Below the pieces are notes generated by a model, which saw nothing but the letters and a program-made list of their open reading frames with translations, was not told the DNA's origin and searched no databases. 64,000 bases of DNA from Pseudactinotalea sp. HY158 (GTDB lineage: Bacteria; Actinomycetota; Actinomycetes; Actinomycetales; Beutenbergiaceae): positions 1,178,001 to 1,242,000 of the forward strand of contig NZ_CP045920.1 of assembly GCF_009660225.1 (NCBI RefSeq). The letters are read 5' to 3'. Positions 44,431 to 60,262 of this stretch are shown piece by piece. Positions within the stretch are counted from its first letter, which is position 1. Each line of letters opens with the position of its first letter. The translations under genes were made by a program, and so were the position numbers.

Positions 44431-45116
44431 CCGCGGCGCCCGAGCTCGCCGCGGCCCTGGGAATCGAGCTCGACCCCGACCTGCTCGTGCTCGCCCTGAC
44501 CCACCGCAGTTTCGCCCACGAGGCCGGCGGCATCCCCACGAACGAGCGCCTCGAGTTCCTCGGCGACTCCGTGCTGGGCCTCATCGCGACCGAACGCCTC
44601 TACCGCGACAACCCCGACCTCGACGAGGGCGAGCTCGCCAAGATGCGCGCGGCGTCCGTCTCCCAGCACTCGCTCGCCGCGATCGCCCGCGGCCTCGGCC
44701 TCGGCGGCTACGTGCTCCTCGGCAAGGGGGAGTTGACCACCGGCGGCCGCGACAAGGACTCCATCCTGTGCGACACGCTCGAGGCGGTCTTCGGAGCCGT
44801 CTACCTGTGCCACGGCCTCGAGGAGACCCGCCGCGTGATCGAGGGGCTGATCGCCGAGACGCTCGCCCGCGCCGGCCGCCTCGGCGCCGGCCTCGACTGG
44901 AAGACCAGCGTGCAGGAGCTCGCCGCCCGCCGGAACCTCGGCGCCCCCACCTACGAGGTCGAGGGCAGCGGCCCCGACCACGACCGCCGCTACACCGCCC
45001 GCCTCCTCATCGCAGGCCAGAGCCACGGCGCCGGCGAGGGCACGAGCAAGAAGGCGGCCGAACAGCGCGCCGCCGAGGCCGCCTACGTGAGCCTGACCAC
45101 GCCCGAGCGGGACTGA
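44427..45116 (+). CDS. rnc: Ribonuclease III
   Basis: 229 residues. It cuts double-stranded RNA in rRNA processing. THRSFAHEAGGIPTNERLEFLGDSVLGLIATERLY is the RNase III signature with the metal-binding acidic residues, DTLEAVFGAVYLCHGLE is the second acidic block, and the C-terminal dsRNA-binding domain spans about residues 150-225 (WKTSVQELAARRNLGAPTYEV through GEGTSKKAAEQRAAEAAY). It overlaps DUF177 by 4 nt and mutM by 1 nt (TGATG). Confidence 0.95.
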   Translation: MTAAPELAAALGIELDPDLLVLALTHRSFAHEAGGIPTNERLEFLGDSVLGLIATERLYRDNPDLDEGELAKMRAASVSQHSLAAIARGLGLGGYVLLGKGELTTGGRDKDSILCDTLEAVFGAVYLCHGLEETRRVIEGLIAETLARAGRLGAGLDWKTSVQELAARRNLGAPTYEVEGSGPDHDRRYTARLLIAGQSHGAGEGTSKKAAEQRAAEAAYVSLTTPERD

Positions 45117-46015
45117 TGCCCGAGCTGCCCGAGGTCGAGACGATCCGCGCCGGGATCGCCGATCACGCCGTCGGCGGGCGGATCGAGTCGGTCGAGGTGT
45201 TCTCCGATCGCGCGATGCGCCGCCAGCAGGGTGGCCGCGACGAGTTCGCCGCGCTGCTGGCCGGCCGCACGCTCACCGGCGCCCGCCGCCGCGGGAAGTT
45301 CCTGTGGCTCACCCTCGACCACGAGGGGGAGGAGGCCCTCCTCATCCACCTCGGCATGAGCGGGCAGGTGCTCGTGCGAGAGCGTACGGACGACGCAGCT
45401 CACCTTCCCGCGCATGCGCGGGTGCGTCTCACGCTCGCCGGTGGCCCCGGTAACACAGGTGTCCCCGGTAGGACAGTGGAGCTGCTGTTCGTCGACCAGC
45501 GCACGTTCGGCTACATGTGGGCCGGGCCGCTGACGCCCGAGGGCCTGCCCGAGCCCGTCGCCCACATCGGCCGCGACCTGCTCGACCCGGCACTCGCCGC
45601 CGGCACGGCTGACTATTCGGAGCTCGTGCGCGCGATCCGTGGCACCGGCCGCGGGATCAAGACCGTGCTGCTCGATCAGCGGGTCCTCTCCGGCATCGGC
45701 AACATCTACGCCGACGAGGCGCTGTGGCGGGCCCGGCTGCACTACGCCACCCCGGCGGAGCGGCTGCGACCGATCCGGGCGGGTGAACTGCTCGAGTCCG
45801 CCCGGGACGTGCTGACCGAGGCGCTCGCGGCGGGCGGCACGAGTTTCGATGCGCTCTACGTCGACGTCGCCGGCGATTCCGGCTACTTCGAACGGGAACT
45901 GGCCGTCTACGGGCGCGAGGGCCTGCCGTGCGGACGGTGCGGGCGTGCCATCGTGCGCGAGCCGTGGGCCAACCGCTCCTCCTTCCGGTGCCCCGCCTGC
46001 CAGCGGAAACGTTAG
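45116..46015 (+). CDS. mutM: Formamidopyrimidine-DNA glycosylase
   Basis: 299 residues. It removes oxidised purines (8-oxoG, FapyG). The N-terminal MPELPEVETIRAGI holds the catalytic Pro and Glu. GMSGQVLVRER, the H2TH segment LLDQRVLSGIGNIYADEALWRARLHY and the C-terminal zinc finger C-x2-C...C-x2-C (CGRCGRAIV...FRCPACQ) are complete. There is a small extra Gly-rich loop (AGGPGNTGVPGR). After mutM, smc and ftsY are usual in relatives; instead the gene is followed by toxin-related remnants. Confidence 0.94.
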   Translation: MPELPEVETIRAGIADHAVGGRIESVEVFSDRAMRRQQGGRDEFAALLAGRTLTGARRRGKFLWLTLDHEGEEALLIHLGMSGQVLVRERTDDAAHLPAHARVRLTLAGGPGNTGVPGRTVELLFVDQRTFGYMWAGPLTPEGLPEPVAHIGRDLLDPALAAGTADYSELVRAIRGTGRGIKTVLLDQRVLSGIGNIYADEALWRARLHYATPAERLRPIRAGELLESARDVLTEALAAGGTSFDALYVDVAGDSGYFERELAVYGREGLPCGRCGRAIVREPWANRSSFRCPACQRKR

Positions 46016-46252: not shown

Positions 46253-46541
46253 GCCGGCGTCGATGACGAGCCCGGTCTCCCTCGGGACACGATTCCCGTG
46301 GTCGGCGAACCGTGCCGCGGCGGCGCGACCGCACGACCTCCGCGACGAAGAAGCGTGAGAACGCGCGGTGCGCGGCGCTGTGCGGGAGGATGCAGAGTTC
46401 GCCCTGGGCGGCGCCCGTTCCCGGATGTCCGCGAGCGAGAGGGTGCCCGCATCCGTGCCCGGCCGTGATGGTCGAGTTCGAGCCTGCCGGTTCGGCGTCG
46501 TGGCCCATCGACTCGGACACTCGTAGAAGCGTGGCGACAAA
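46253..46541. other. About 290 bp without a recognisable gene
   Basis: Between the ParE remnant and the hipB upstream region. Minus-strand frames give patches such as GELCILPHSAAHRAFSRFFVAEVV and RFADHGNRVPRETGLVIDAG in different frames, which looks like a decayed gene, but I could not identify it. No tRNA or repeat seen. Confidence 0.4.
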
Positions 46542-46582
46542 GGTCGTCATAACGACCATATATGGCTGCTATCTTAGCCATA
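46542..46582. promoter_or_regulatory. hipBA operator-promoter region with two inverted repeats
   Basis: GGTCGT-CATA-ACGACC (46542-46557) is a perfect 6-4-6 inverted repeat. TATGGCT (46561-46567), 8 bp, then AGCCATA (46576-46582) is a perfect 7-bp repeat, close in form to the E. coli HipB site TATCC-N8-GGATA. It lies 20 bp before the hipB start; the antitoxin should bind here. Confidence 0.6.
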
Positions 46583-46602
46583 AGCGACGGAGGGAGTGTG
46601 TC

Positions 46603-46890
46603 ATGGGTGGGTACCGGATCGGCCGTGAGCTAGCCGAGTTCGGCGAGCATGTGCGTGGCTGGCGCATGGTCCTCGGACTCACCGCGCAGCAGGTGGCCGA
46701 GCGCGCCGGCATCACGCGAGACACGCTGCGCAAGGTCGAGTCGGGAGACCCCGGTGTGGGTTTCGGGAACGTCGCGCAGGTGCTGCGCGCCCTCGGTGTG
46801 CTCGATCGGACGGTCCAGGCGGTCGACCCGCTCGGCAGCGACATCGGGCGTCTGCGGGCCGGAAAACTCGCGAAGAGACGCGCACGATGA
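46603..46890 (+). CDS. hipB: HipB-like antitoxin, XRE-family DNA-binding protein
   Basis: 95 residues. The helix-turn-helix is MVLGLTAQQVAERAGITRDTLRKVESGDPGVGFGNVAQVLRALGVLD, the Xre/HipB fold. The GGAGGGAG site 6 nt upstream decides the start at ATG 46603. Its stop overlaps the hipA start (ATGA), as usual for hipBA pairs. It should neutralise HipA and repress the operon through the inverted repeats upstream. Confidence 0.85.
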   Translation: MGGYRIGRELAEFGEHVRGWRMVLGLTAQQVAERAGITRDTLRKVESGDPGVGFGNVAQVLRALGVLDRTVQAVDPLGSDIGRLRAGKLAKRRAR

Positions 46891-48128
46891 CCACGGTCGA
46901 CGTCGTGATCGACCGGGCCGGAGAGTCGATCCTGGTGGGGCAGGCGCATTTCACCAGGGAGCGTAGCCGGATCTCCACCACGTTCCTCTACGACCCGAGC
47001 TACCTGGCCGGCGACGGGATGAGTATCGACCCTGCGCTGCCGCTCGTCTCGGGGGCGCAGCATCAGCCCGGTCTCGTGCGGGCCTTCGCCGACAGCGCTC
47101 CCGACCGCTGGGGCAGGAATCTCATCGAGAAGGCAGAGCGCGCCCGTGCCCGCGAAGAGGGCCGAGCCTCGCGCCGACTGGACGACCTCGACTTCCTCCT
47201 GGGTGTCAGCGACGACGCGCGTCAGGGAGCCCTGCGATACCGGATCGCCGGCACCTCGACGTTCGTCGGCAACGCGTCGCACGTCCCACAGTTGGTCTCA
47301 CTCCCGGCGCTGCTGCATGCCTCCGACGACGTCGCCGCGGACGACGATCCCCGTGAAGCCGTCAAGCAACTGCTCGACACAGGCACGACCGGGCTGGGCG
47401 GTGCGCGTCCGAAGGCGTCTGTTCGCCTCGAAGACGGTGCGTTGGCCATCGCCAAGTTCCCCCACTCCGGCGACCGGTGGGACGTCATGGCGTGGGAGGC
47501 GACAGCGCTGGATCTACTGGAGTCGGCGGCCATCCGAACACCCACCCGGCGGCTGACACGAGTGGGCGAGCGCAGCGTGCTCATCCTGCGACGATTCGAC
47601 CGCACCGACGACGGGCACAGAGTCGGCTACATCAGCGCGATGACCGCGCTCGGCGCCTCCGACGGCGACCAGCGCGACTATGCCGAGATCGCCGAGGCGA
47701 TCCGAGACCTCTCGCTCTCCCCGAAGGCGGACCACCGAGCGCTCTTCGATCGTGCGGTCGCATCCATCGTTCTGGGGAATACCGATGACCACCTCCGCAA
47801 CCACGGCTTCCTCGCAGATCGCGGCTCATGGACGCTCAGCCCGGCCTTCGACGTGAATCCCAACCCGGATCCGTGGAAGGCGCGCTCGACGGCGATCTTG
47901 GGGGCCTACGCGCTCCCCGACGAAGCTGAGGCATTGCTGCCGCTGGCCGAGGAATGCGCCCTGAGCGCCGACGAGGCGCGCGCCAGGATGCTCCGCATCC
48001 TGGCGGTGACGGCCGACTGGCGCGGCGCAGCGCGGAGGAACGGCATTCCCGAGCGGGAGATCGAGATGATGGCGGAGTCGATCGACACTCGATCGGCGGC
48101 CGTGGCCGGCGCGGCGGGAGCGGCCTGA
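46887..48128 (+). CDS. hipA: HipA-type Ser/Thr kinase toxin
   Basis: 413 residues, close to E. coli HipA (440). The HipA_C domain has GGARPKASVRLEDGALAIAKFPHSGD (nucleotide-binding lobe), then NTDDHLRNHGFLADRGSWTLSPAFDVNPNP with the catalytic Asp and the DFG-like Asp (about residues 296-322). HipA phosphorylates a target such as GltX, leading to growth arrest; gltX is present in this window but the target here is unproven. Codon third positions are less strictly G/C than in neighbours, suggesting later acquisition. Confidence 0.87.
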   Translation: MTTVDVVIDRAGESILVGQAHFTRERSRISTTFLYDPSYLAGDGMSIDPALPLVSGAQHQPGLVRAFADSAPDRWGRNLIEKAERARAREEGRASRRLDDLDFLLGVSDDARQGALRYRIAGTSTFVGNASHVPQLVSLPALLHASDDVAADDDPREAVKQLLDTGTTGLGGARPKASVRLEDGALAIAKFPHSGDRWDVMAWEATALDLLESAAIRTPTRRLTRVGERSVLILRRFDRTDDGHRVGYISAMTALGASDGDQRDYAEIAEAIRDLSLSPKADHRALFDRAVASIVLGNTDDHLRNHGFLADRGSWTLSPAFDVNPNPDPWKARSTAILGAYALPDEAEALLPLAEECALSADEARARMLRILAVTADWRGAARRNGIPEREIEMMAESIDTRSAAVAGAAGAA

Positions 48129-48225
48129 CAGTGGTGCGACCGCTCGTCGTCCACGCGAGCCGAACGGGGTGGAGGGTTCGACAGGCCGTCGCCGCGCGAA
48201 TCGGGACGAGGGGCCGCGGTCCCGG

Positions 48226-48798
48226 TCACAGCTGCGAATTCCATCGCGACAGGGCCCGCCCGCCCTTGTAGGGGGCGAGCACGCTCACCGTCCCGGTCGC
48301 CAACGGGAACGAGTCGCCCAAGCCGAAGTCGAGCCCGAGCCAGCACAGGGTCATCGCCCGCAGGCCGTGACCGTGGCCGAAGCAGAGCACGCGGTCCAGA
48401 CCCGACCCGGCGGCGCGGTCGATCACCCGGGTGAGGCGGGCGCGCACCTGCTCCGCCGTCTCGCCCCCGGGAACGTCGCCGGTCCAGATGGTCCAGCCCG
48501 GCCTCTCGGCGCGGATGTCGGCGCTTGTCACCCCCTCGTAGTCGCCGTAGTCCCATTCGACGAGGTCCTCGCAGAGCTCGACCCGGTCGGCGGAGAATCC
48601 GGCGAGCTCGGCCGTGCGCCGGGCACGCAGCCGCGGACTCGAGAGCACCAGGTCGAACGCGGCGGGATCGAGCCGGCCCTTGAGCGACTCGGCCTGCCGC
48701 ACCCCGATCTCGGTCAGGTCCAGGTCGGTGACCGAGGTGTGCCGCCCGCTGCGGCTCCACGCGGTCTCGCCATGACGAATCAGGTAGATCTCTGTCAT
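48226..48798 (-). CDS. Histidine phosphatase family protein (phosphoglycerate-mutase-like)
   Basis: 190 residues. The phospho-His motif is YLIRHGETAWSRSGRHT at the N terminus, the second His lies in LCFGHGHGLRAMTL, and the acidic segment is VEWDYGDYEG. Size and motifs suggest a phosphatase of the cofactor-independent GpmB/CobC sort, substrate unknown. ATG 48798 has GAGGAG upstream; the long open frame beyond it is antisense to the M20 gene. It is divergent from the response regulator. Confidence 0.88.
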   Translation of the reverse strand: MTEIYLIRHGETAWSRSGRHTSVTDLDLTEIGVRQAESLKGRLDPAAFDLVLSSPRLRARRTAELAGFSADRVELCEDLVEWDYGDYEGVTSADIRAERPGWTIWTGDVPGGETAEQVRARLTRVIDRAAGSGLDRVLCFGHGHGLRAMTLCWLGLDFGLGDSFPLATGTVSVLAPYKGGRALSRWNSQL

Positions 48799-48918
48799 CG
48801 GGGACTCCTCGTGCGCGCTCTCATCGGCCTGTTCCAGAGCACCACGGTCGCGGCCTCGGCGACAAGGGTGTCGCCGGGCCGGAATCGGCCGACGCCCGCC
48901 CGGCGGGGCGCGGGCGGA

Positions 48919-48924
48919 TAGGCT
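48919..48924 (+). promoter_or_regulatory. -10 element for leaderless response-regulator mRNA
   Basis: TAGGCT ends 7 nt before GTG 48932; no ribosome-binding site seen. Confidence 0.4.
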
Positions 48925-48931
48925 GAGCGCC

Positions 48932-49591
48932 GTGACCAACCAGATGCCCGGGAGCACCGACATCCCGGTGATGATCGTCGACGACCACGAGGTCGTCCGC
49001 CGCGGGATCGCCGAGGTGATCGACCGCTCCGACGGCCTGCAGGTCGTCGGCGAGGCCGGCTCCGTGGCCGAGGCCGTCCGGCGGATGATGCTCGTGCGCC
49101 CGGCGGTGCTACTCGTCGACCTGCAACTGCCCGACGGCACCGGCATCGACATCATCAACGCCGCCACGCGCGACCTGCCCGAGGCCCGCAGCATCGTGCT
49201 CACCTCCTTCGACGACGACGAGGCGGTGAGCGAGGCCCTGACCGCCGGCGCCAAGGCCTTCCTGCTCAAGAGCGTGCGCGGGGCCGAGATCGCCGAGGTG
49301 GTCCGGGCCGTGGCCGCGGGCCGGGTGCTGCTCGACCACCGCACGATCACCCGCCACCAGAGCGAGGACGACCCGACCGCCGACCTGACCAAGTCCGAGC
49401 GGCGGGTGCTCGAGCTCATCGCCGAGGGGCTGACGAACCGCGAGATCGCCGACCGGCTCGGCGTCGCCGAGAAGACCGTGAAGAACCACATCACCTCGCT
49501 CCTGTCCAAGATGGGACTCGAGCGGCGCACCCAGGTCGTCGCCTGGGTGGCCGGGCGCCGCGGCGGTGCCTGGCGACGGAGGGACTCATGA
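48932..49591 (+). CDS. NarL/LuxR-family response regulator, DevR/DosR-like
   Basis: 219 residues. The receiver domain begins VMIVDDHEVVRRGIAEVI and carries the phosphoryl Asp in LLVDLQLPDGTGID (about D63), with the Thr/Lys switch in VLTSFDDDEA and FLLKSVRG. The C-terminal LuxR helix-turn-helix is LTKSERRVLELIAEGLTNREIADRLGVAEKTVKNHITSLLSKMGLERRTQ. GEAGSVAEAVRR, RxLLDHR and VKNHITSLLSKMGLERRTQ closely resemble M. tuberculosis DosR. No kinase is adjacent, but a DosS-type kinase lies about 5 kb downstream. It is translationally coupled to the M20 peptidase gene. Confidence 0.88.
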   Translation: MTNQMPGSTDIPVMIVDDHEVVRRGIAEVIDRSDGLQVVGEAGSVAEAVRRMMLVRPAVLLVDLQLPDGTGIDIINAATRDLPEARSIVLTSFDDDEAVSEALTAGAKAFLLKSVRGAEIAEVVRAVAAGRVLLDHRTITRHQSEDDPTADLTKSERRVLELIAEGLTNREIADRLGVAEKTVKNHITSLLSKMGLERRTQVVAWVAGRRGGAWRRRDS

Positions 49592-50955
49592 CCGACCCGC
49601 TTCAGGACCGGCTGCGCGCGGAGGTCGCCGGCCTCATGCCCCGTGCCCTGGACGAACTGCGCGCCCTCGTGGCGCTGCGGTCCGTGGCGGACGCGCAGGT
49701 CGAGGATCCACGTGAGCTCGAGCTCGCGGCCCGCTGGGTCCGAGACTCGCTGGCCGCCGAGGGGCTCGAGGCTCGGCTCGCCCGCACTCCCGACGGCACG
49801 GACGCCGTCATCGCGACCTACGACGGCCCGCCCGACTCCCCGCGGGTGCTGCTCTACGCCCACTACGACGTCCAGCCCGCCCACGCCGAGGAGTGGACGA
49901 GCGACCCGTGGGACCTGACCGAACGGGACGGGCGCCACTACGGCCGCGGCGCCGCCGACTGCAAGGGCAACATCCTCGCCCACCTCACGGCCCTGCGCGC
50001 GTGCCGGGCGCTGAGCGGCGACGGCTACCCGTGCTCCCTCACCGTCGTGGTCGAGGGCTCCGAGGAACAGGGCACCGGCGGCCTCGAGGACTACGTGCGC
50101 GACCACCCGGAGGAGTTCGCGGCCGAGATCGTCATCATCGGGGACGTCGGCAACATCGCCGTCGGAGTGCCGACGCTCACGGTCGCCCTGCGCGGGATGG
50201 CCGACACGATCGTGCGCGTGCGCACCGGCAGCGGACAACTCCATTCGGGAGCGTTCGGCGGCGCCGCCCCCGACGCGCTCGCGGCCCTCATCGCCATGCT
50301 CGCGAGCCTGCGCGACGCCGACGGGAACACGACCATCGACGGGCTCGCCGCCGACGGCGTCTGGGAGGGCACGCAATACGACGAGGAGACCTTCCGCGCC
50401 GATGCGGGCATCCTGCCCGGGGTGCGCCGGATCGGCAGCGGGACGATCTCCGACCACCTGTGGGCCCGTCCCGCGGTCACCGTGCTCGGAATCGACGCCC
50501 CCGCCGTGATCGGCTCGGTGCCGTCGGTGCAGCCCGCCGCCGCGGCCCGCGTCAGCCTGCGCGTGCCACCCGGGATGGACCCGGGGCGGGCACAGGAGGC
50601 GCTCGTCGAACACCTGCGAGGGGCCGCGCCCGGGGGCGTGCACGTCGAGTTCGAGCGGGTCGGCCTCGGTCGCCCCTTCTCCGCCCGACAGGACACCCGC
50701 GCGTTCGAGCTGCTCGCCGGCGCGATGGCCGACGCCTTCGACGCGCCCACGCAGACCTCCGGCCAGGGCGGATCGATCCCGCTCACCGCGGCCCTCGCCG
50801 ACGCCCACCCGGAGGCCTCGATCGTCCTCGTCGGGGTGGCCGAGCCGGCGAGCCGCATGCACGCCGAGGACGAGTCGGTCCACCCCGACGAGATCTCCCA
50901 CCTCGCGCTCGCGGAGGCGCTCTTCCTGCACCGTCTCGCCGCTCACGCCGGCTGA
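49588..50955 (+). CDS. M20 family metallopeptidase (dipeptidase)
   Basis: 455 residues. Zinc ligands and catalytic residues appear in LLYAHYDVQPAHAEEW (His and Asp), RGAADCKGNILAHL (Asp), VVEGSEEQGTGG (Glu-Glu) and the dimerisation-domain TGSGQLHSGAFGG. The final His ligand lies in a C-terminal ASRMHAEDESVHPDE block. It probably cleaves dipeptides or removes acyl groups from amino acids in the cytoplasm. ATG 49588 overlaps the response-regulator stop, which suggests shared expression. Confidence 0.9.
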   Translation: MTDPLQDRLRAEVAGLMPRALDELRALVALRSVADAQVEDPRELELAARWVRDSLAAEGLEARLARTPDGTDAVIATYDGPPDSPRVLLYAHYDVQPAHAEEWTSDPWDLTERDGRHYGRGAADCKGNILAHLTALRACRALSGDGYPCSLTVVVEGSEEQGTGGLEDYVRDHPEEFAAEIVIIGDVGNIAVGVPTLTVALRGMADTIVRVRTGSGQLHSGAFGGAAPDALAALIAMLASLRDADGNTTIDGLAADGVWEGTQYDEETFRADAGILPGVRRIGSGTISDHLWARPAVTVLGIDAPAVIGSVPSVQPAAAARVSLRVPPGMDPGRAQEALVEHLRGAAPGGVHVEFERVGLGRPFSARQDTRAFELLAGAMADAFDAPTQTSGQGGSIPLTAALADAHPEASIVLVGVAEPASRMHAEDESVHPDEISHLALAEALFLHRLAAHAG

Positions 50956-50986
50956 CCGGGCCGATTGCGGGCGGCCCGGGCCCGCC

Positions 50987-50992
50987 TACCGT
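50987..50992 (+). promoter_or_regulatory. -10 element for leaderless hydrolase mRNA
   Basis: TACCGT ends 7 nt before the ATG at 51000. Confidence 0.4.
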
Positions 50993-50999
50993 GGATCGG

Positions 51000-51824
51000 A
51001 TGGAGGCGAGGATCGCCGGGTCGGCCGTGCACTACATCGAGCACGGAGACGGCATGCCGATCCTCGTGCTGCACGGCGCGGGGGTCGATCATCGCGAGAT
51101 CGCGGTGGCGCTCGAGCCCGCGTTCGCCGCGGCCCCGCGCGATCATCGGCGCCTGTACCCCGACCTGCCGGGGATGGGGAAGACGCCGATGCCCGCGGCG
51201 GTCATGAGCAACGACGACGTCCTCGACCTCCTCATCGGATTCGCCGGCGAGGTCATCGGTGACCACCCGTACCTCGTCGTGGGCCATTCGTACGGTGCGT
51301 ACCTCGCCCGGGCGCTCGCCGACGCCGAGCCGGACCGAGTGGCCGGCCTGGCGCTCATCGCCCCGGTCGGTGCGGGCACCGAACAGGCGGCTCCGCGCCC
51401 GCAGCATCGTGCGCTGGTCTCGACGGTCGACGCCGAGCGGGAGCTGGCAGCGGACCTCGCCGAGACCTACCGCACCTATTTCGTGCTGCAGACCCCGCAG
51501 ACCCTCGAGCGTCACCGCCGGTACATCGCTCCGTCGGCGGCGCTGGTCGACTGGGCCGGCCTGACGAGGGTGTTCGCGAACTGGACGCTGCGCGACCGGC
51601 GGAGGGCGCCGGCATCCGACGACCGACCGGTCCTCATCCTCGCCGGCCGGCAGGACTCGATCGCCGGCAGCGCCCACGCGCAGTCCCTCGCCGACCACTA
51701 CGCCCGCGCGACCGTCGGCGTGCTCGACCGCGCGGGCCACGCCCTGCTGCACGAGCAGCCCGGCCTCGCCGCGGCGCTCCTGCTCGACTGGCTCGATCGC
51801 TGCGACGGGTTGCCGACTACGTGA
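51000..51824 (+). CDS. Alpha/beta hydrolase
   Basis: 274 residues. Strand and oxyanion segment ILVLHGAGVDHREI, nucleophile elbow VVGHSYGAYLARALA (GHSYG), catalytic Asp in LILAGRQDSIAG and His in VLDRAGHALLHEQP are all in place. The cap region lies at residues about 125-195. The likely activity is esterase or similar; substrate unknown. It overlaps the convergent sulfatase by 8 bp. Confidence 0.88.
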   Translation: MEARIAGSAVHYIEHGDGMPILVLHGAGVDHREIAVALEPAFAAAPRDHRRLYPDLPGMGKTPMPAAVMSNDDVLDLLIGFAGEVIGDHPYLVVGHSYGAYLARALADAEPDRVAGLALIAPVGAGTEQAAPRPQHRALVSTVDAERELAADLAETYRTYFVLQTPQTLERHRRYIAPSAALVDWAGLTRVFANWTLRDRRRAPASDDRPVLILAGRQDSIAGSAHAQSLADHYARATVGVLDRAGHALLHEQPGLAAALLLDWLDRCDGLPTT

Positions 51825-53463
51825 GGTGCGCTGCGCCGTCCGTACGCTCGTGCGGCCCGCCGCCGAACGTATGGACGCCGGTGCTCCAGTCGGGCCGCGG
51901 GGTGTCCGGCCCCGCATAGGGCCGGTCGCCGTAGCGGGCCTGGAGGCGCGTCAGCTCGGCGCGCAGGTCGGCGAGGATGTCCGCGTAGGCCGGATCGCCT
52001 GCGACGTTCGTCAGTTCCTCGGGATCGGCTCCGAGGTCGTACAGCTCGTACTCCTGCTCGAAGCGCCGGTCCGAGGAGCCGGGGGAGCCGAGCCCGTCGC
52101 CGTAGTAGTGGATGTACTTGTACCGGTCGGTGCGCACGCCGTAGTGGGCGGGGGCGTGATGGACCGGGTCGTCGTGCTCCCAGTACCGGTAGTACATCGA
52201 CGTGGGCCAGTCCTCGACCTGCTCCCCGCGCAGGATCGGGCGGAAGCTGCGGCCCTGGGAGGTCGGCAGCACCTGCGACGGGTCGAGCCCGCACGCGTCG
52301 AGGAACGTGGCGGCGAAGTCGACGTTCGTGATGATCTCCTCGCGGCGGGTGCCGGCGGGGATCTCGGCGGGCCAGCGCAGCAGCATCGGCATCTGCAGCG
52401 ACTGGTCGAACATGAGCCGCTTGTCGAACCAGCCGTGGTCGCCGAGGAAGAAGCCCTGGTCGGAGGTGTAGACCACGATCGTGTCCTCGGCCAGGCCCGC
52501 CTCGTCGAGGTGGTCGAGCAGCGCCCCCACGCCGTCGTCGACCGCCTGCACGGTCTGCAGGTAGTCGCGCAGGTAGCGCTGGTACGTCCAGCTGGTGCGC
52601 GCCCGGGTGTTCTCGGGCCCGAGGAGCTCGGGGGGCACGTCCTCCTTGATGTCGTCGCGGGTGAGGTCGTCCGCGATCGACATCCGCACGTCCCGCACGG
52701 CCCGACTCATGGTGGAGTGGTCGTCGAAGAGGGTGGCCGGCTCGGGCAGGTCTCCGTCGGCGTACAGGTGGCCGTGCCGGGGGTGGGGGATCCACGGGCG
52801 GTGCGGGGCCTTGTGGTGGACCATGAGGCAGAACGGCCGATCGCCGTCGAGTGAGCGCAGCCACTCCAGGCTCAGGTCGGTCACGATGTCCGTCGCGTAT
52901 CCGGGCACGTCCACGGGGCCGGCGGCGGTGACCATCTCCGGATCGACGTAGTCCCCCTGGTCGGGGAACACCTGCCAGGAGTCGAAGCCGCGGGGCCGGG
53001 ACGCCGCCGACTCCCCGAGGTGCCACTTGCCGAAGATCGCCGTCGCGTACCCGGTCGCCTGCAGGGCCTCGACGAAGGTGGGAACGCGGTAGTCGAACTC
53101 GGAGTAGATCGACGGGGAGCCGTTGACGTGGCTGTAGGTGCCCGTGAGGATGCTCGCCCGCGACGGTGTGCACAGGGAGTTCGTGCAGTACACCGACCCC
53201 ATGAGCACGCCCTCGGTGGCGATCCGGTCGAGGTTCGGGGTCCGGTTCACCCGGCCGCCGTACGCCGAGATCGCGTGCGCGGCGTGATCGTCCGACATGA
53301 CGAAGACCAGGTTGGGTCGGCGCCGCGGAGTCGCCGTCATGTCGTCCGAGTGGGTCTCGGCCGGCAGTGCGGAGGTCCGCTCGGCGTTGAGCCGGGCCTG
53401 TTCCCGCAACGCGCCGATCCGGCGGCGCACCTCATCGAGTGCATCCAAGGGATCGCTCGTCAT
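51817..53463 (-). CDS. Sulfatase (arylsulfatase family)
   Basis: 548 residues. LVFVMSDDHAAHAISAYGG gives the metal-binding Asp pair, CTPSRASILTG is the CxPxR site whose Cys becomes formylglycine, and KWHLGES, HHKAPHRPW and YTSDQGFFLGDHGWFDK are later active-site blocks. There is no signal peptide, so it is probably cytoplasmic. It hydrolyses sulfate esters after activation by a formylglycine-generating enzyme, which is not in this window. The N-terminal 45 residues are an extra helical stretch. An N-terminal Met at residue 42 is a possible alternative start. Confidence 0.9.
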   Translation of the reverse strand: MTSDPLDALDEVRRRIGALREQARLNAERTSALPAETHSDDMTATPRRRPNLVFVMSDDHAAHAISAYGGRVNRTPNLDRIATEGVLMGSVYCTNSLCTPSRASILTGTYSHVNGSPSIYSEFDYRVPTFVEALQATGYATAIFGKWHLGESAASRPRGFDSWQVFPDQGDYVDPEMVTAAGPVDVPGYATDIVTDLSLEWLRSLDGDRPFCLMVHHKAPHRPWIPHPRHGHLYADGDLPEPATLFDDHSTMSRAVRDVRMSIADDLTRDDIKEDVPPELLGPENTRARTSWTYQRYLRDYLQTVQAVDDGVGALLDHLDEAGLAEDTIVVYTSDQGFFLGDHGWFDKRLMFDQSLQMPMLLRWPAEIPAGTRREEIITNVDFAATFLDACGLDPSQVLPTSQGRSFRPILRGEQVEDWPTSMYYRYWEHDDPVHHAPAHYGVRTDRYKYIHYYGDGLGSPGSSDRRFEQEYELYDLGADPEELTNVAGDPAYADILADLRAELTRLQARYGDRPYAGPDTPRPDWSTGVHTFGGGPHERTDGAAHLT

Positions 53464-53518
53464 CGGATGTCCTTCCGGTTCGACTGCTGGGCGGGGTGGC
53501 CCCGCTCAGGGCATGGGT

Positions 53519-54127
53519 TCAGGGGCGGCGGGTGATGAGCCCGTCGGGGGTGGCGGGCACCGGACCGGGCCAGGTGCCGAGCCGGTCCAGGTTCTCCCGG
53601 GCCCCGAGCCCGGAGTCGGCGCGCACGCCGTCGTGTCCCGGCAGCCACACCTCGGTCACGGAGTAGCCCGTCTCGGGATTGAAGCGACCGAGATCGCCGC
53701 CTGCCGGAAGCCAGCCGGCCGCCCGCGCGGCGGCGGGACCATCGAACGGATCCTCGGGCGAACTGCGCACCGCGATCGTGATCGCCGCATTCGGCATATA
53801 GCCCTGCCGCACGGACCAGGCCGACTCCACGAGGTAGGTGATGAGCGCGGGGCCGCGGCTGACCGTGTATCCGGCCGCGAGCGAGAAGCGGAGGGCGACC
53901 CCCACGTTTCCCTTGGTATTGGGCTCCCAGCCGCTGATCGACACGTCCTCGATGCCCGGCAGCGCCCGGATCGCCGACTCCATATCGGCGCGGGCCCACC
54001 CGCCCGAGGGGGCGTCATGCGGCAGGTCGGCGTTGCTCCACGTGCCGTCCGGCCCGCCACAGCCCGCCAGGCCCAGCACCATGATCCCGGCCAGGCTCGC
54101 GCGCAGGAACGAACGTCGGCTACCCAT
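53519..54127 (-). CDS. Tat-type lipoprotein of unknown function
   Basis: 202 residues from ATG 54127. The N terminus MGSRRSFLRASLAGIMVLGLAGC combines a twin-arginine motif (SRRSFLR) with a lipobox (LAGC), so it is exported folded and lipid-anchored. The mature part has no recognised domain; it contains ADMESAIRALPGIEDVSISGWEP and later AAGYTVSRGPALITYLVESAWSV, which look like an alpha/beta fold. The open frame continues upstream without a start signal. It is on the same strand as the sulfatase, which starts 55 bp after its stop. Confidence 0.7.
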   Translation of the reverse strand: MGSRRSFLRASLAGIMVLGLAGCGGPDGTWSNADLPHDAPSGGWARADMESAIRALPGIEDVSISGWEPNTKGNVGVALRFSLAAGYTVSRGPALITYLVESAWSVRQGYMPNAAITIAVRSSPEDPFDGPAAARAAGWLPAGGDLGRFNPETGYSVTEVWLPGHDGVRADSGLGARENLDRLGTWPGPVPATPDGLITRRP

Positions 54128-54314
54128 AGCGCACCGTGTCTCGGAAACGGAACGACACGTCCTCCCAGATCGCCTTGTCGGAGATGAGGGCATTGTCGTC
54201 AACCATCCTCACCTCGCCGCTCGTGCGGTCCCGCCGGTCGCAGCGTCCTGAAGGGCACGGTGCTCATATTAACGGTGCTCACATGAGGGGAACGGTCGCG
54301 GCCCGGGGCGGTCC

Positions 54315-55910
54315 TCATCCCAGCCGGGCGTCCCAGTGCAGAAGGCTGCCGCCGGTCTCGCCGGGGCCGAACATGAACGTGCCCCCGTGCCGGCGGGCCC
54401 GCGAGCCGAGGTTCGCCAGGCCGGAGGCGCGGGTGCGGGCGGGGTCGATGCCCACCCCGTCGTCGGCCACCTCGATCTGCACACTTCGGGGGCTGAGGTC
54501 CACCTGCACGTGCACCGAGGAGGCGCGCGCGTGCCGGGCCGCGTTGGCGAGCCCCTCACGCACGACCGCGACGATGTCGTCGGCCAGGTCGCCGCCCACG
54601 AGGGCGGCCAGCTCGTTCACGTCGTCGCGGGGGTCGGAGGGCGTGACCACGAGCGAGGGCGCGAAGCCCAGCCCCGTGCGGGCGAGCGAGGTCTCCCGCT
54701 GCAGCCGTTCGAGGATCGGGGCGGCCTCGTCGTCGCTGCGGATCGAGCGCACGATCGCCCGGATCTGGCGCACGGAGTCGTCCACGCCGTCGAGCGCCTC
54801 GGTGAGCGCCTGGTGCACGATCGAGTCGGTGACCGATTCGCGGGCCTTGCTCAGCTGCAGCCCCGTGGCGAACAGCTGCTGGATGGCCAGGTCGTGCAGG
54901 TCGCGCCCGATCCGGGCGCGCTCGTCGAGCAGCGTGGCCCGGTCCTTGGCCGCGCGGGCCTCGGCGAGCTTGAGCGCGAGGGCCGCTTGGCCCGCGATCG
55001 ACTCGGCGATCGTCAACTCGTCCTGCATGAACTCGGGTGCCCCGAGCCGGCGCAGCAGGGCGATGACGCCGAGCGCGTTCCCGTCGGCCAGGAGCGGGGC
55101 ATAGAGCGCCGGTCCGTAGCGCCCGAACTCGGGAACCCGCAGCGAGGGGGTGCGTGAGAACGAATCGACCACGAGCCCGGCACCGGAGGAGAGCACGCTG
55201 CGGGCCCGGCCCTCCGCCGGCATGACGATGCCGAGCAGGTCCGCCGTCTCCGGGCCGTCGACGATCTCGATCACCCAGTCCCCGCCGACCCCCGGCAGCA
55301 CGATGCAGGCCGCGTCCGCATCGGCCACCTGCCGAATCCGGGAGGCGATGAGCGCGAGGGCGTCCTCGGGATCGGGATCCTGCAGCAGGGCCGAGGTGAT
55401 GTCGTGGCCTGCCTGCAGCCACCGCTCCCGCGTGCGCACCGCCGTGTACAGGTCGCTGTTCTGCACGGCGACCGCGGCCGCGGAGGCGAGCAGGTGCATC
55501 GAGTCGGTGTCGGCCTCGGTGAAGCCGCCGTCCTTCTCCGCGACGTACAGGCGCCCGTAGGCCTCCCCGGCCACGTGGATCGGCACCCCGAGGAAGGTGT
55601 GCATGATCGGATGGTGCTCCGGGAATCCGCCGAAGTCCGGGTGGGTCGTCAGGTCCTCGAGCACGAGGTGGCCGTCCGGCGGGATCGCCGCGAGCACGCC
55701 CCGGCCCTCCGGATGCCGCAGGGTCGCGACGAGATCCGGGTCGAGGCCGTGGCTCACGAACGGATCGATCTGGCCGATCGAGTCGAGCACGCCGATCGCC
55801 GCGTACCGCGCGCCCGTCAGGTGACACGCCGCGGTCACGATCTCTCCCAGGACCTCGTTCAGGTCGAGGTGGGACGTGACGGTGAGCAGGGCGTCGATGA
55901 TGCGTTTCAC
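54315..55910 (-). CDS. GAF-domain sensor histidine kinase, DevS/DosS-like
   Basis: 531 residues from GTG 55910. Two GAF domains (about residues 15-155 and 170-315) precede a HisKA_3 dimer region with RIGRDLHDLAIQQLFATGLQL (phospho-His about 339) and an HATPase_c domain (VREGLANAARHARA, VADDGVGID, HGGTFMF). In GAF-A the run GFPEHHPIMHTFLGVPIHV has the His pair (99-100) at the position of the heme ligand of M. tuberculosis DosS. This suggests an oxygen, NO or redox sensor; heme binding is inferred. Upstream of the GTG the frame still looks coding for 19 codons up to a TAG, with no other start. Its partner regulator is probably at 48932-49591. Confidence 0.85.
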   Translation of the reverse strand: MKRIIDALLTVTSHLDLNEVLGEIVTAACHLTGARYAAIGVLDSIGQIDPFVSHGLDPDLVATLRHPEGRGVLAAIPPDGHLVLEDLTTHPDFGGFPEHHPIMHTFLGVPIHVAGEAYGRLYVAEKDGGFTEADTDSMHLLASAAAVAVQNSDLYTAVRTRERWLQAGHDITSALLQDPDPEDALALIASRIRQVADADAACIVLPGVGGDWVIEIVDGPETADLLGIVMPAEGRARSVLSSGAGLVVDSFSRTPSLRVPEFGRYGPALYAPLLADGNALGVIALLRRLGAPEFMQDELTIAESIAGQAALALKLAEARAAKDRATLLDERARIGRDLHDLAIQQLFATGLQLSKARESVTDSIVHQALTEALDGVDDSVRQIRAIVRSIRSDDEAAPILERLQRETSLARTGLGFAPSLVVTPSDPRDDVNELAALVGGDLADDIVAVVREGLANAARHARASSVHVQVDLSPRSVQIEVADDGVGIDPARTRASGLANLGSRARRHGGTFMFGPGETGGSLLHWDARLG

Positions 55911-56347
55911 GGCGGCGGCCTCACGGTCTGCAGGGGCGGGTCGCCGGTCGGCGGCCCGCTCCTATGACACCACGCCGGGCGCGGCGTGGTGTTGTGGAAC
56001 AAGCCTATGGACGACGGCCGCTCGCCTCACGCGGTCAGCTCCCGTGCGTATCGGCCCCGGTGTGCGATACTGGGTTCCGGTGATCCAGATGGCCATACCC
56101 GCTGGTGAACCCGGTGACTTCAGCTTGGTTGGGGTTCGCGTTGCCTGCGCGGTTCGATTGCCTGCGCACGACGATGGATCGACCGGCAGTGGGCCCACAT
56201 GGTCCGCGAAGGCACCGGCGGTGCCCAGACGCGCGAGTGCGCGAACGGGAGCCGCACAACACGACTTTCTCAGGCGCGACGGCGCCAACGACATCCCGAG
56301 TGCCGTAGGTGGGTATGGCTGGGGCACCGGGTGGGAGCACTCCCAAC
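55911..56347. other. Upstream region of rne, about 440 bp without a gene
   Basis: Divergent gap between the sensor kinase and rne. It contains an extended -10-like TGTGCGATACT around 56057-56067 and several hairpins, for example GGCACC-GGC-GGTGCC (56211-56225). A long 5' leader for rne mRNA, as in other bacteria that autoregulate RNase E, is plausible. No ORF with a convincing start is seen. Confidence 0.4.
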
Positions 56348-59300
56348 ATGACGACACCAATGAACACCCCTGAATCTGCTGAATCTGCTGAATCGGTGCA
56401 GGCGCCCCCCGCCCGCCGCCGTCCGCGCCGGGCCACGAGGCCCACGCTTCCGCCGGAGTCGGCCGCCGCCGAGGCGCAGCAGCCGGCCGCGGAGCCCGCC
56501 GCCCTGGCGAAGCCGACGCGTTCGACCCGCTCCAAGAAGTCCGCAGCCACCGATGCGCCCGCCCCGGCGGCCGACGCGACCCCGGAGAGCTCGGTGACTT
56601 CAGGGGCCCCAGAGAGCTCAGAGAACTCAGAGACCCCGGAGACCCCGAAGACCCCGAAGACACAGCGGCGCGCCACGACCGCCAAGGCCGCAGCCGCCAA
56701 GGCTCCGGCCGCCAAGGCCGCAACCACGAAGGCCACTGCTGCTGCAGCCACTGAGGCGGCCGAGGCTCCGGCTGCCAAGGGCGCCAAGGCCGCAACCACC
56801 AAGGCCACGAAGGCTGCGACCACCAAGACTGCGGCCACGAAGGCCGCGAAGGCCGTCGCAGGCGACGTCACCGCGCCGGACACAGCCCCGGCCACCGCGG
56901 CGGACACAGCCCCGGAAACTGGGGCCAGTGACGCCTCCGAGGCCTCCGAGTCCGCAGCGAAGGCCACGGAAGCGCCCAAGGCCGAGAAGGCGGCAGTGTC
57001 CACGAAGGCCACGAAGTCGGCAGTGTCCACGAAGTCCACGAAGGCCACGAAGACGGCGAAGTCCACGAAGTCGGCGGCCGCCCAGGCCGAGCCGGCCACG
57101 ACGACCAAGAAGTCCGCCCCGGCGCGTCAGGCGAAGGCCGCCGCCGCCGACCAGCCCCTCACCACGGATGTTCCGGCCGCGGCCGAGCAGCCGGCCGCCG
57201 AGCAGCCCCTCACCACGGATGTTCCGGCAGTGGCCGAGCAGCCGGTCGCCGCCGAGCGGCCCGCTGCGACTGCGCCCGCCAGGGCGACCCGGTCCCGTCG
57301 CTCGACCCGCTCGGCCGGGTCCGCGGCCCCGGTGGCCGACAAGCCCGCCGAGACCGCCGGGTCCGCTGAGACTGCTGGTTCGGCTGGTTCTGCTGGTTCC
57401 ATCGACGCCACGGCGCCGGTCGAGACCGCCGAGGCATCCGGCGGCGACCAGGCCGCACCGGCACGATCGGGCCGTTCCCGCGCGTCGGCGAAGACGACCA
57501 AGGCCGCCAACTCGACCAAGGCGACCAAGTCGAGTCGGTCGAGCGGTGCGCGCACGTCGGCCCCGACAGAATCCAACGAATCCAACGGATCCAACGAATC
57601 CGACGAATCCGCAGGCACCGCCGAGCAGGGGGCGGCCGGGCGGGCCGAGGCGAGCGCCTCGAACGCCGGGAGCGGAACGGGAGCGACGTCGTCCGCACGC
57701 TCCGCGCTCAACGTGCTGGCCGAATTCGGCCAGGGCGGCGAGGACGAGGATGAGGACGGAACGGACGCGGCGACCGCCACGAGCCTCGACGACCTGGTCA
57801 TCCCGGAGCGCGAACCCGCCGGTGACGACGCCCCGCGCCTTCCGGCCACCGCGCTGCTGTTCCAGGCGCCGGACCTCACCCCGCGCCGCAAGGGATCGAG
57901 CAAGCGCCGGGCGGCCGAGGAACGTGCCGAGGACACCCAGGTCGAGCGGGCCGAGAAGTCCGTGCAGGCCGACGAGTCCGAACGGGCCGACCGGCCCGGG
58001 CAGCCGGACCGGTCCGAGCAGTCCGACGAGTCCGGCGAGTCGGGCAGGTCGGGTCGGGGCATGCCCGGCGAGACGGGCGCGGACGGCGATCACGACGACT
58101 CGAAGCCGCGCCGTCGCCGGCGCCGCGGGGGCCGCGGCCGCCGCCGCTCGGGTGGTTCGAACGACGACTCCGGCTCCGCGGGCGGCGAGTCGGGCGAGGG
58201 GTCCACGGACTCGTCGGACTCCTCCGGCTCGTCGGGCTCGGACGCGGATTCACCGAAGCGTTCCGGCAAGGGCTCCGGGAAGGGTGACTCGAACGGGTCG
58301 CGTGCCGAGTCGAACGGCTCGAACGGCTCGAACGGCTCTGGAGGCCCTGGAGGCTCGGAGGCGTCGGGTAGCGACGACGACTCCGGGGACAACGCCTCCT
58401 CGAGTTCGCGCCGGCGCCGGCGTCGTTCCCGCTCCGGCCGCGGCAACGACGACGGCGGCGCCCAGGCCGCCCGCGACTCCGTCACGCCGCTCAAGGGCTC
58501 GACGCGCCTCGAGGCCAAGCGTCAGCGCCGCAAGGAGGGCCGCGACCCCCACCGTCGCCGGTCCATCATCACCGAGGCCGAGTTCCTCGCCCGCCGCGAG
58601 TCCGTCGAGCGCAAGATGATCGTGCGCGAGCAGGCCGGCCGCACCCAGGTCGCCGTGCTCGAGGACGACGTGCTCGTGGAGCACTATGTGGCGCAGAAGT
58701 CGCACAGCTCGATGGTCGGCAACGTCTACATCGGCCGCGTGCAGAACGTCCTGCCCTCGATGGAGGCCGCATTCGTCGACCTCGGTCGCGGTCGCAACGC
58801 CGTGCTCTACGCCGGCGAGGTGAATTGGGACCTGGCCGGCCTGAACGGCAAGCCGCGCAAGATCGAGAACGCGCTCTCCTCGGGCGACAGCGTGCTCGTG
58901 CAGGTGACGAAGGACCCGATCGGGCACAAGGGCGCCCGGCTCACCTCCCAGGTCACCCTCGCCGGCCGCTACCTCGTGCTCGTGCCCGGGGGCGGGATGA
59001 CCGGCATCTCCCGCAAGCTCCCGGAGACGGAGCGGAGCCGCCTCAAGAAGCTGCTCAACACGATCGTCCCCGACGGCCAGGGCGTCATCGTGCGCACCGC
59101 CGCCGAGGGCGCCTCGGAGGAGGAGCTGCGCGGCGACGTCGAGCGGCTCTCGGCCCAGTGGGCGGAGATCGAGAAGAAGTCGGCCAAGCCGTCCTCGGTG
59201 CCCGCCCTGCTCAAGGGTGAACCCGAGCTCGCCACCCGCGTGGTGCGCGACATCTTCAACGACGACTTCTCCGCGCTCGTCATCTCCGGGCCGAACGCCT

Positions 59301-60262
59301 GGAAGACGATCTCGGAGTACGTCAACTCCGTCGCCTCGGACCTGGCCGACCGGATGAGCCAGTGGACCGGGCCGGCCGACGTGTTCAGCGCCCATCGGGT
59401 GGACGAGCAGCTCGCCAAGGGGATGGACCGCAAGGTCTGGCTGCCCTCGGGTGGCTCGCTCGTGATCGACCGCACCGAGGCGATGACCGTCGTGGACGTC
59501 AACACGGGCAAGTTCACGGGCTCGGGCGGCACGCTCGAGGAGACCGTCACGAAGAACAACCTCGAGGCGGCCGAGGAGGTCGTGCGTCAGCTGCGGCTGC
59601 GCGACATCGGCGGGATCATCGTGATCGACTTCATCGACATGGTGCTCGAGTCCAACCGGGATCTCGTGCTGCGCCGGCTCGTCGAGTGCCTGGGCCGGGA
59701 CCGCACCCGCCACCAGGTCGCCGAGGTCACCTCGCTCGGGCTCGTGCAGATGACCCGCAAGCGGGTCGGCCAGGGCCTCGTCGAGGCCTTCTCGACCACG
59801 TGCGAGTGCTGCAACGGGCGGGGCTACCACGTGACCTCCGACCCGGTCGAGGGCGAGTCCCAGACCGAGCCGGGTACCTCGGCCAGGGATGGCAAGGACG
59901 GCAGGGAGAAGGGCGGCTCGAAGTCCTCCGGCCGCTCCGGGGACTCGACGCGCTCGCGCAAGGGGCGCCGCAGCTCCTCCTCCCAGCCGGCCGCCCAGCC
60001 GGAGCCGGAGGCCGAGCCGGTGAACGAGGAGCAGCGCGAGCAGGTCAAGGCCACGCTCGCCGCGATCGCGGCGGCGGCCGCCCACGCCCACACGGGTGAG
60101 GACGGCGCAGCAACCGATCCCGGGTCGGCTGCGGTCGCGGGCGGCACGTCCGGGGGTGAGGCGGCCTCCGAGACGGAGGCTGCGTCGTCCGCAGGCGTGG
60201 GCGAGGCCGCCCCGGCGGGCGAGGGCTCCGAGCCCCCGGCGGCCGAGGTTCCGGCCGGCTGA
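56348..60262 (+). CDS. rne: RNase E/G family endoribonuclease with very long N-terminal extension
   Basis: 1304 residues. The catalytic part (about 740-1160) has SIITEAEFLARRESVERKMIVRE, the S1 domain (HSSMVGNVYIGRVQNVLPSMEAAFVDLG), the 5' sensor/RNase H region (VIDRTEAMTVVDVNTGKFTG, IGGIIVIDFIDM) and the Zn-link CECC of TTCECCNGRGYHV. Before it lie about 730 residues of Ala/Lys/Thr-rich, acidic, Ser/Gly-rich and Arg/Gly-rich sequence, probably disordered and RNA-binding. About 140 disordered residues follow. It cleaves mRNA and rRNA precursors and scaffolds the degradosome. ATG 56348 (GGGAGC upstream) is preferred; GTG 56309 and ATG 56315 are alternatives. Confidence 0.9.
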   Translation: MTTPMNTPESAESAESVQAPPARRRPRRATRPTLPPESAAAEAQQPAAEPAALAKPTRSTRSKKSAATDAPAPAADATPESSVTSGAPESSENSETPETPKTPKTQRRATTAKAAAAKAPAAKAATTKATAAAATEAAEAPAAKGAKAATTKATKAATTKTAATKAAKAVAGDVTAPDTAPATAADTAPETGASDASEASESAAKATEAPKAEKAAVSTKATKSAVSTKSTKATKTAKSTKSAAAQAEPATTTKKSAPARQAKAAAADQPLTTDVPAAAEQPAAEQPLTTDVPAVAEQPVAAERPAATAPARATRSRRSTRSAGSAAPVADKPAETAGSAETAGSAGSAGSIDATAPVETAEASGGDQAAPARSGRSRASAKTTKAANSTKATKSSRSSGARTSAPTESNESNGSNESDESAGTAEQGAAGRAEASASNAGSGTGATSSARSALNVLAEFGQGGEDEDEDGTDAATATSLDDLVIPEREPAGDDAPRLPATALLFQAPDLTPRRKGSSKRRAAEERAEDTQVERAEKSVQADESERADRPGQPDRSEQSDESGESGRSGRGMPGETGADGDHDDSKPRRRRRRGGRGRRRSGGSNDDSGSAGGESGEGSTDSSDSSGSSGSDADSPKRSGKGSGKGDSNGSRAESNGSNGSNGSGGPGGSEASGSDDDSGDNASSSSRRRRRRSRSGRGNDDGGAQAARDSVTPLKGSTRLEAKRQRRKEGRDPHRRRSIITEAEFLARRESVERKMIVREQAGRTQVAVLEDDVLVEHYVAQKSHSSMVGNVYIGRVQNVLPSMEAAFVDLGRGRNAVLYAGEVNWDLAGLNGKPRKIENALSSGDSVLVQVTKDPIGHKGARLTSQVTLAGRYLVLVPGGGMTGISRKLPETERSRLKKLLNTIVPDGQGVIVRTAAEGASEEELRGDVERLSAQWAEIEKKSAKPSSVPALLKGEPELATRVVRDIFNDDFSALVISGPNAWKTISEYVNSVASDLADRMSQWTGPADVFSAHRVDEQLAKGMDRKVWLPSGGSLVIDRTEAMTVVDVNTGKFTGSGGTLEETVTKNNLEAAEEVVRQLRLRDIGGIIVIDFIDMVLESNRDLVLRRLVECLGRDRTRHQVAEVTSLGLVQMTRKRVGQGLVEAFSTTCECCNGRGYHVTSDPVEGESQTEPGTSARDGKDGREKGGSKSSGRSGDSTRSRKGRRSSSSQPAAQPEPEAEPVNEEQREQVKATLAAIAAAAAHAHTGEDGAATDPGSAAVAGGTSGGEAASETEAASSAGVGEAAPAGEGSEPPAAEVPAG
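57152..57253 (+). repeat. 51-bp in-frame duplication in the rne extension
   Basis: CAGCCCCTCACCACGGATG begins at 57152 and again at 57203, each heading a unit that encodes QPLTTDVPAxAEQPxAAE. It is part of a wider set of short Lys/Ala/Thr repeats (56640-57130) coding KAATTKATKA-like sequence. Confidence 0.7.

Follow-up and report, generated by a model that had tools for sequence, protein, structure and literature searches.

Probable tie of a DosS/DosR-like branch to cytochrome bd, and deletion of the operon beside the pair in Pseudactinotalea sp. HY158

A 64,000-nucleotide stretch of the Pseudactinotalea sp. HY158 genome (NZ_CP045920.1, positions 1,178,001 to 1,242,000 of the forward strand; hereafter the window) carries genes for a response regulator and a sensor kinase that resemble DosR and DosS of Mycobacterium tuberculosis and that lie in opposite orientation, with other genes between them. 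The question raised by this locus, already posed in a first-pass annotation of the same DNA, is whether the two are partners and whether the intervening genes are their regulon. The reading developed here, which we hold to be probable, is that they form a cognate DosS/DosR-type system belonging to a branch of its own that is linked to cytochrome bd, and that the corresponding operon has been deleted from this locus. The two genes and the parts of them discussed below are:

48932-49591, plus strand: DosR-like response regulator with a receiver and a LuxR-type helix-turn-helix (HTH) domain (PDB matches, Pfam, residue alignment, tree).
48919-48924, plus strand: -10 element TAGGCT, 7 nucleotides (nt) ahead of the GTG start and kept in relatives.
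54315-55910, minus strand: DosS/DosT-like sensor histidine kinase (GAF-A, GAF-B, HisKA_3, HATPase) with phosphoacceptor H339.
55464-55865, minus strand: GAF-A of the kinase, residues 16-149, with G40, H100 and Y122 (domain search, alignments).
55611-55613, minus strand: codon of H100, the predicted proximal heme ligand (coordinates computed; alignments).

DosR contacts DNA through K179, K182 and N183, and the regulator retains the equivalents of all three in the alignment, together with those of the receiver residues D8, D9, D54, T82 and K104. It consists of Response_reg and GerE domains (Pfam), and its top PDB match is DevR/DosR (3c3w; E 6.4e-53, 183 bits), followed by VraR (5hev, 137 bits). 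Because a TANNNT hexamer sits 12-13 nt before the start in this genome and in most relatives of the locus clade, the regulator probably has a leaderless transcript, which makes the GTG at 48932 its likely start codon. The kinase comprises a GAF domain (residues 16-149), a second GAF domain (~181-313), HisKA_3 (330-394) and then HATPase; the top PDB matches of its GAF-A are those of DosS and DosT (E ~1e-24), which are also the best solved relatives of its ATPase domain. The first-pass annotation had described a DosR-like regulator and a two-GAF DosS-type kinase in opposite orientation, and both descriptions hold, including the coordinates.

Partnership was assessed in 297 genomes of the order, among which a close regulator occurs in 117 and a kinase in 149 (E 1e-60). 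The 117 regulators were paired with the 104 best-matching kinases of the same genomes. All 98 pairs that share a contig are convergent (tail-to-tail), none being divergent or tandem, and in the remaining six the regulator and kinase are on separate contigs; more distant pairs in G024, G030 and G038 are ordered otherwise. The distance between the genes ranges from 15 bp to 27 kb (at most 250 bp in 53 of the 98). Since the same tail-to-tail order is fixed across 98 genomes, comparison strongly supports a cognate two-component pair, which answers the first part of the question. That the genes are split, as the first-pass annotation stressed, is nothing special: the convergent gap merely gathers variable inserts.

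The genes upstream of the kinase point to a target, a connection that had been missed, as had its deletion here. The link was examined on about 50 loci of the 98. In relatives, cydA, cydB, cydD and cydC lie upstream of the kinase on the same strand (CydC, CydD and cydB score above the NCBIfam cut-off, and bd subunits I and II were recognized by Pfam). Of the 47 locus-clade members, 43 have cydC immediately before the kinase, the others being G008, G020, G022 and G167 (567 bp of sequence only in G167); the arrangement is absent from all five canonical DosRS pairs. In several genomes the stop codon of cydC and the start of the kinase overlap, and wherever the region was read the kinase is the last gene of cydA-cydB-cydD-cydC-kinase. 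An apparently conserved small leader open reading frame ahead of the kinase was rejected, as it is the 3' end of cydC. On the far side, rne divergently adjoins cydA in 18 of the 18 regions fetched for that test. Comparison shows the ancestral order to be mutM-regulator> <kinase-cydC-cydD-cydB-cydA, then rne>.

The cydA promoters share a box. GGGACCWWSGTCCC occurs with at most two mismatches in 19 of 19, mostly 67-92 bp before the start, and GGGACNNNNGTCCC (at most one mismatch) yields 18 sites in the 300-bp upstream regions against none in the reversed control. In 756 kb of partly overlapping loci of relatives there are only 13 exact copies of the box; nine lie at cydA, and the others belong to loci of canonical DosRS pairs. 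Its sequence agrees with the core of the box known from M. tuberculosis, so that, as judged by comparison, the cydA promoter of the ancestral-type locus carries a DosR-type palindrome. The likely target of the pair in relatives is therefore the cydABDC-kinase operon and not the genes of the gap.

In Pseudactinotalea sp. HY158 this operon is gone from the locus, and what is left lies between the kinase and its divergent neighbour:

56051-56332, no strand: what remains of the former rne-cydA intergenic region, cydABDC having been lost on its kinase side, with the junction at ~56050 (alignment with relatives).
56309-60262, plus strand: rne, ribonuclease E/G-like, divergent neighbour of the kinase.

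A 270-bp part of the rne-kinase interval aligns to the rne-cydA intergenic region of G001 (score 74, shuffled maximum 28) and the interval shares a 21/21 block with G011. The 140 bp adjoining the start of the kinase align to no relative. Because this leftover region aligns with relatives, the comparison shows that a deletion between the cydA promoter of the ancestral locus and the kinase removed cydABDC and its box and left the sensor pair intact. The cyd genes are likewise missing from the locus in G008, G020 and G022. The window contains no cyd genes; no search for cydAB elsewhere in the genome was made. The rne product has a Ser/Ala/Lys-rich low-complexity N-terminal part of ~640 residues.

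What, then, could the pair control in this genome? The first-pass annotation proposed a search for DosR-like palindromes upstream of 48932, 54127 and 55910 and across the genome; it turned up none in the window within two mismatches, and half-sites are at control level. Genome-wide, the DosR box TTSGGGACTWWAGTCCCSAA has no occurrence with up to three mismatches, GGGACNNNNGTCCC with one mismatch gives 159 sites against 141 in the control, and the OsdR-type GGGCCNNNNGGCCC gives 57 against 100. The four exact GGGACNNNNGTCCC sites in the genome are inside genes and lack the WWS centre. Two intergenic candidates for a cyd-type box, one at 975721 (440 bp from an amidohydrolase) and one at 144139 (between genes for a siderophore-interacting protein and DUF6580), were set aside as probably due to chance. 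Three other elements flank the pair:

48822-48846, plus strand: 25-bp element CATCGGCCTGTTCCAGAGCACCACG upstream of the regulator, 21 of 25 positions shared with the kinase upstream region.
55985-56009, minus strand: 25-bp element CATAGGCTTGTTCCACAACACCACG upstream of the kinase, the second member of the pair of elements.
55967-55992, no strand: perfect 11-bp palindrome ACACCACGCCG-N4-CGGCGTGGTGT ahead of the kinase, with no second copy in the genome.

The 21-bp core of the shared element has no further site in the genome within two mismatches, and the kinase-side copy contains a TAGGCT -10-like hexamer. The 25-bp element is absent near the pair in relatives and from their cydA promoters, and the adjacent 11-bp palindrome, predicted to form a strong RNA hairpin (fold z -3.1), is also absent in relatives. 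These elements may be operators or scars of rearrangement. The two 25-bp copies are inverted and located at both edges of the 7-kb region, each adjoining a rearrangement point (the insertion at the left, the cyd deletion at the right). One proposal, tentative and on balance unlikely, is that after the deletion of cydABDC the pair was rewired through the 25-bp element at both genes into an orphan gas sensor under its own control, with a new set of target genes. Another, likewise unlikely, is that the pair has been a decaying relic without output since that loss: the target operon and its box are gone from the locus and no exact box is left in the genome, but neither reading frame is disrupted, no catalytic residue is missing and the regulator retains its leaderless promoter.

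The signal may be approached through GAF-A. The His pair that the first-pass annotation had placed at the heme-ligand position, GFPEHHPIM, corresponds to kinase residues 95-103, and its second His, H100, indeed aligns with the proximal ligand (DosS His149, DosT His147). Y122 aligns with the distal Tyr (DosS Tyr171, DosT Tyr169) and G40 with DosS Glu87/DosT Gly85, so that the kinase is DosT-like at this position; the roles of His149, Tyr171 and Glu87/Gly85 have been described (PMC4082495). Structure prediction was another of the proposed checks: an AlphaFold model of GAF-A built with three sequences has the GAF fold, with DosS/DosT ranked best by Foldseek, and the loop of residues 64-103 was poorly modelled. 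From these alignments, GAF-A of the kinase is inferred to bind heme through H100.

Several observations weigh against a heme-sensing pair with a cytochrome bd target. The AlphaFold model is unreliable right at the ligand, where the predicted local distance difference test (pLDDT) of residues 64-103 is below 50, and no exact cyd-type box exists in the genome. Moreover, the ligand His, present in 40 of 54 aligned kinases, has been lost about six times in the clade (parsimony, on a tree built without GAF-A), and because of these losses heme sensing is not indispensable for the pair in general. A segment deletion removes it in G020, G022 and G023, GAF-A is entirely missing in G007, G012 and G016 and in G106, G207 and G248, and the His is substituted in G060, G075 and G167 and in G271; G034 is also counted among the losses, its reading being uncertain. 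The phosphoacceptor His is kept in 53 of 54 kinases, i.e. wherever that part was read. It could thus be that GAF-A is not a heme sensor here and that the pair answers another ligand or acts through GAF-B alone. This is rather doubtful: kinase and regulator do persist after loss of the ligand or of the whole domain, and DosS of M. smegmatis, when it lacks GAF-A, shows activity in every condition (PMC4082495), yet the window kinase retains H100, Y122 and a small residue at position 40, and its GAF-A best matches heme-bound DosS/DosT in both sequence and fold. Since the truncated M. smegmatis protein is always active, relatives without GAF-A or the ligand may, by analogy, be permanently on. The GAF-A-less kinases (L101, L102 and L103 of G007, G016 and G012; L164, L169 and L170 of G248, G106 and G207) are natural counterparts of the gas-blind DosS GAF-B-kinase construct, and all of them, being kinases of this locus, still have the regulator partner and cydC upstream.

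If the window kinase does sense heme-bound gas, its GAF-A would bind heme b with H100 proximal and Y122 distal, and the small G40 would make it DosT-like, O2 holding the kinase off and loss of O2, or NO or CO, switching it on. Phosphate would then move from H339 to the D54 equivalent of the regulator, which in relatives would, once phosphorylated, activate cydABDC-kinase via the box in the cydA promoter. The result would be a feed-forward loop that brings in the high-affinity oxidase when O2 is low. In Pseudactinotalea sp. HY158 the output would have to be another target, possibly the pair itself via the shared 25-bp element.

Could the pair instead be a true DosSR ortholog that, like the Mycobacterium system or OsdKR of Streptomyces, drives a regulon for dormancy in hypoxia (Usp and others)? 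That DosR and DosS/DosT are its best solved relatives, and that the genome encodes eight Usp domains, would fit. However, the regulators of the locus form one clade (100/100) that excludes M. tuberculosis DosR but is nested in a group containing it (99/99), and G005 and G019 carry a second, tandem, canonical pair (L114, L115) far closer to M. tuberculosis DosSR (regulator 242 bits, against 183 for the window pair; GAF-A 181 against 90 bits). With neither a full DosR box in the genome nor half-site palindromes above control level, this reading is quite improbable. Because DosR falls outside the clade and G005 and G019 hold the closer second pair, the window pair is DosSR-like, a sister branch of DosR and not its ortholog. 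The two branches coexist in G005 and G019.

The window pair resembles M. tuberculosis DosS/DosT-DosR in the GAF-A/GAF-B/HisKA_3/HATPase architecture of the kinase, in its proximal His and distal Tyr, in the NarL-type regulator with K179/K182/N183 equivalents and, in relatives of the window genome, in the GGGAC-N4-GTCCC box. It differs in that its regulator lies in a separate clade, its genes are convergent and not in a same-strand operon, its kinase lacks the N-terminal 60 residues, and the predicted ancestral target of the family is cydABDC and not the dormancy regulon. The occurrence in a non-mycobacterial genome, on which the first-pass annotation remarked, is true but not unusual. Streptomyces coelicolor OsdK-OsdR is a DosSR-type pair with the same kind of box; the box and the neighbours of osdR differ, and the accessible part of that source describes no cyd link (PMC5069765). 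In Microlunatus phosphovorus, PolS-PolR, a two-GAF DevS-like kinase with a DevR-like regulator, has a proposed oxygen response, and the system is an example of a changed binding site (GTTCACnnnnnGTTCaC); unlike the window regulator, PolR is reported to be 76% identical to DevR and governs polyphosphate and phosphate genes (PMC6754071). HrrSA of Corynebacterium glutamicum likewise is an actinobacterial two-component system acting on cydABDC, but it is a different, heme-responsive system that the available text does not describe as part of the cyd operon (PMC7337898).

The second part of the question concerns the genes between regulator and kinase, which the first-pass annotation listed correctly:

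49588-50955, plus strand: M20 dipeptidase, its start overlapping the regulator stop codon.
51000-51824, plus strand: alpha/beta hydrolase; insert that lacks conservation at this site.
51817-53463, minus strand: sulfatase; insert, with one weak match only, in the gap of G021.
53519-54202, minus strand: Tat-like lipoprotein gene, start uncertain; insert.

The lipoprotein signal (MGSRRSFLRAS...LAGCGG) was judged Tat-like by eye, and this short gene has no Pfam or NCBIfam match. M20 is the sole recurrent resident of the gap in relatives; in family f1 several genera have it beside the regulator, as do two genomes of f9, and its overlap with the regulator here together with this recurrence makes co-transcription probable. 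The sulfatase, hydrolase and lipoprotein genes are not conserved at the locus, and the other contents of the gap vary (MFS transporter, fucosidase, GH76, GGDEF, GDPD, BTAD regulator, PTS). That these genes are the regulon, as had been suggested, is highly improbable, M20 notwithstanding: in 53 genomes the gap has the short length given above, in the rest its contents differ, and in the window the intervening genes hold no DosR-type box within two mismatches. The gap between the convergent genes is best seen, from its changing contents, as a permissive insertion site. The mutM-regulator> <kinase arrangement holds here, but hipA-like and phosphatase genes follow mutM. MutM (45110-46015) and the regulator adjoin in most relatives; here an HTH gene, a HipA-like gene (46887-48128, by eye) and a histidine phosphatase gene (48241-48798, minus strand) occupy 46312-48800 between them, so that the locus has taken up a second insertion.

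According to one source (PMC7337898), little is known about how C. glutamicum regulates its terminal oxidases, and no paper describing a link between a DosSR-type pair and the cyd operon was found in a search made mostly without subscription journals. Control of cytochrome bd in actinobacteria is poorly known, and across much of an order a DosSR-type sensor ends the bd operon. Sensor, target and site are here proposed together, so that the role of the DosR-type box at the cydA promoter is directly testable, and the clade supplies natural mutants in the form of kinases that lack GAF-A, kinases that lack the ligand His and pairs that, as in this window, have lost their target operon by deletion.

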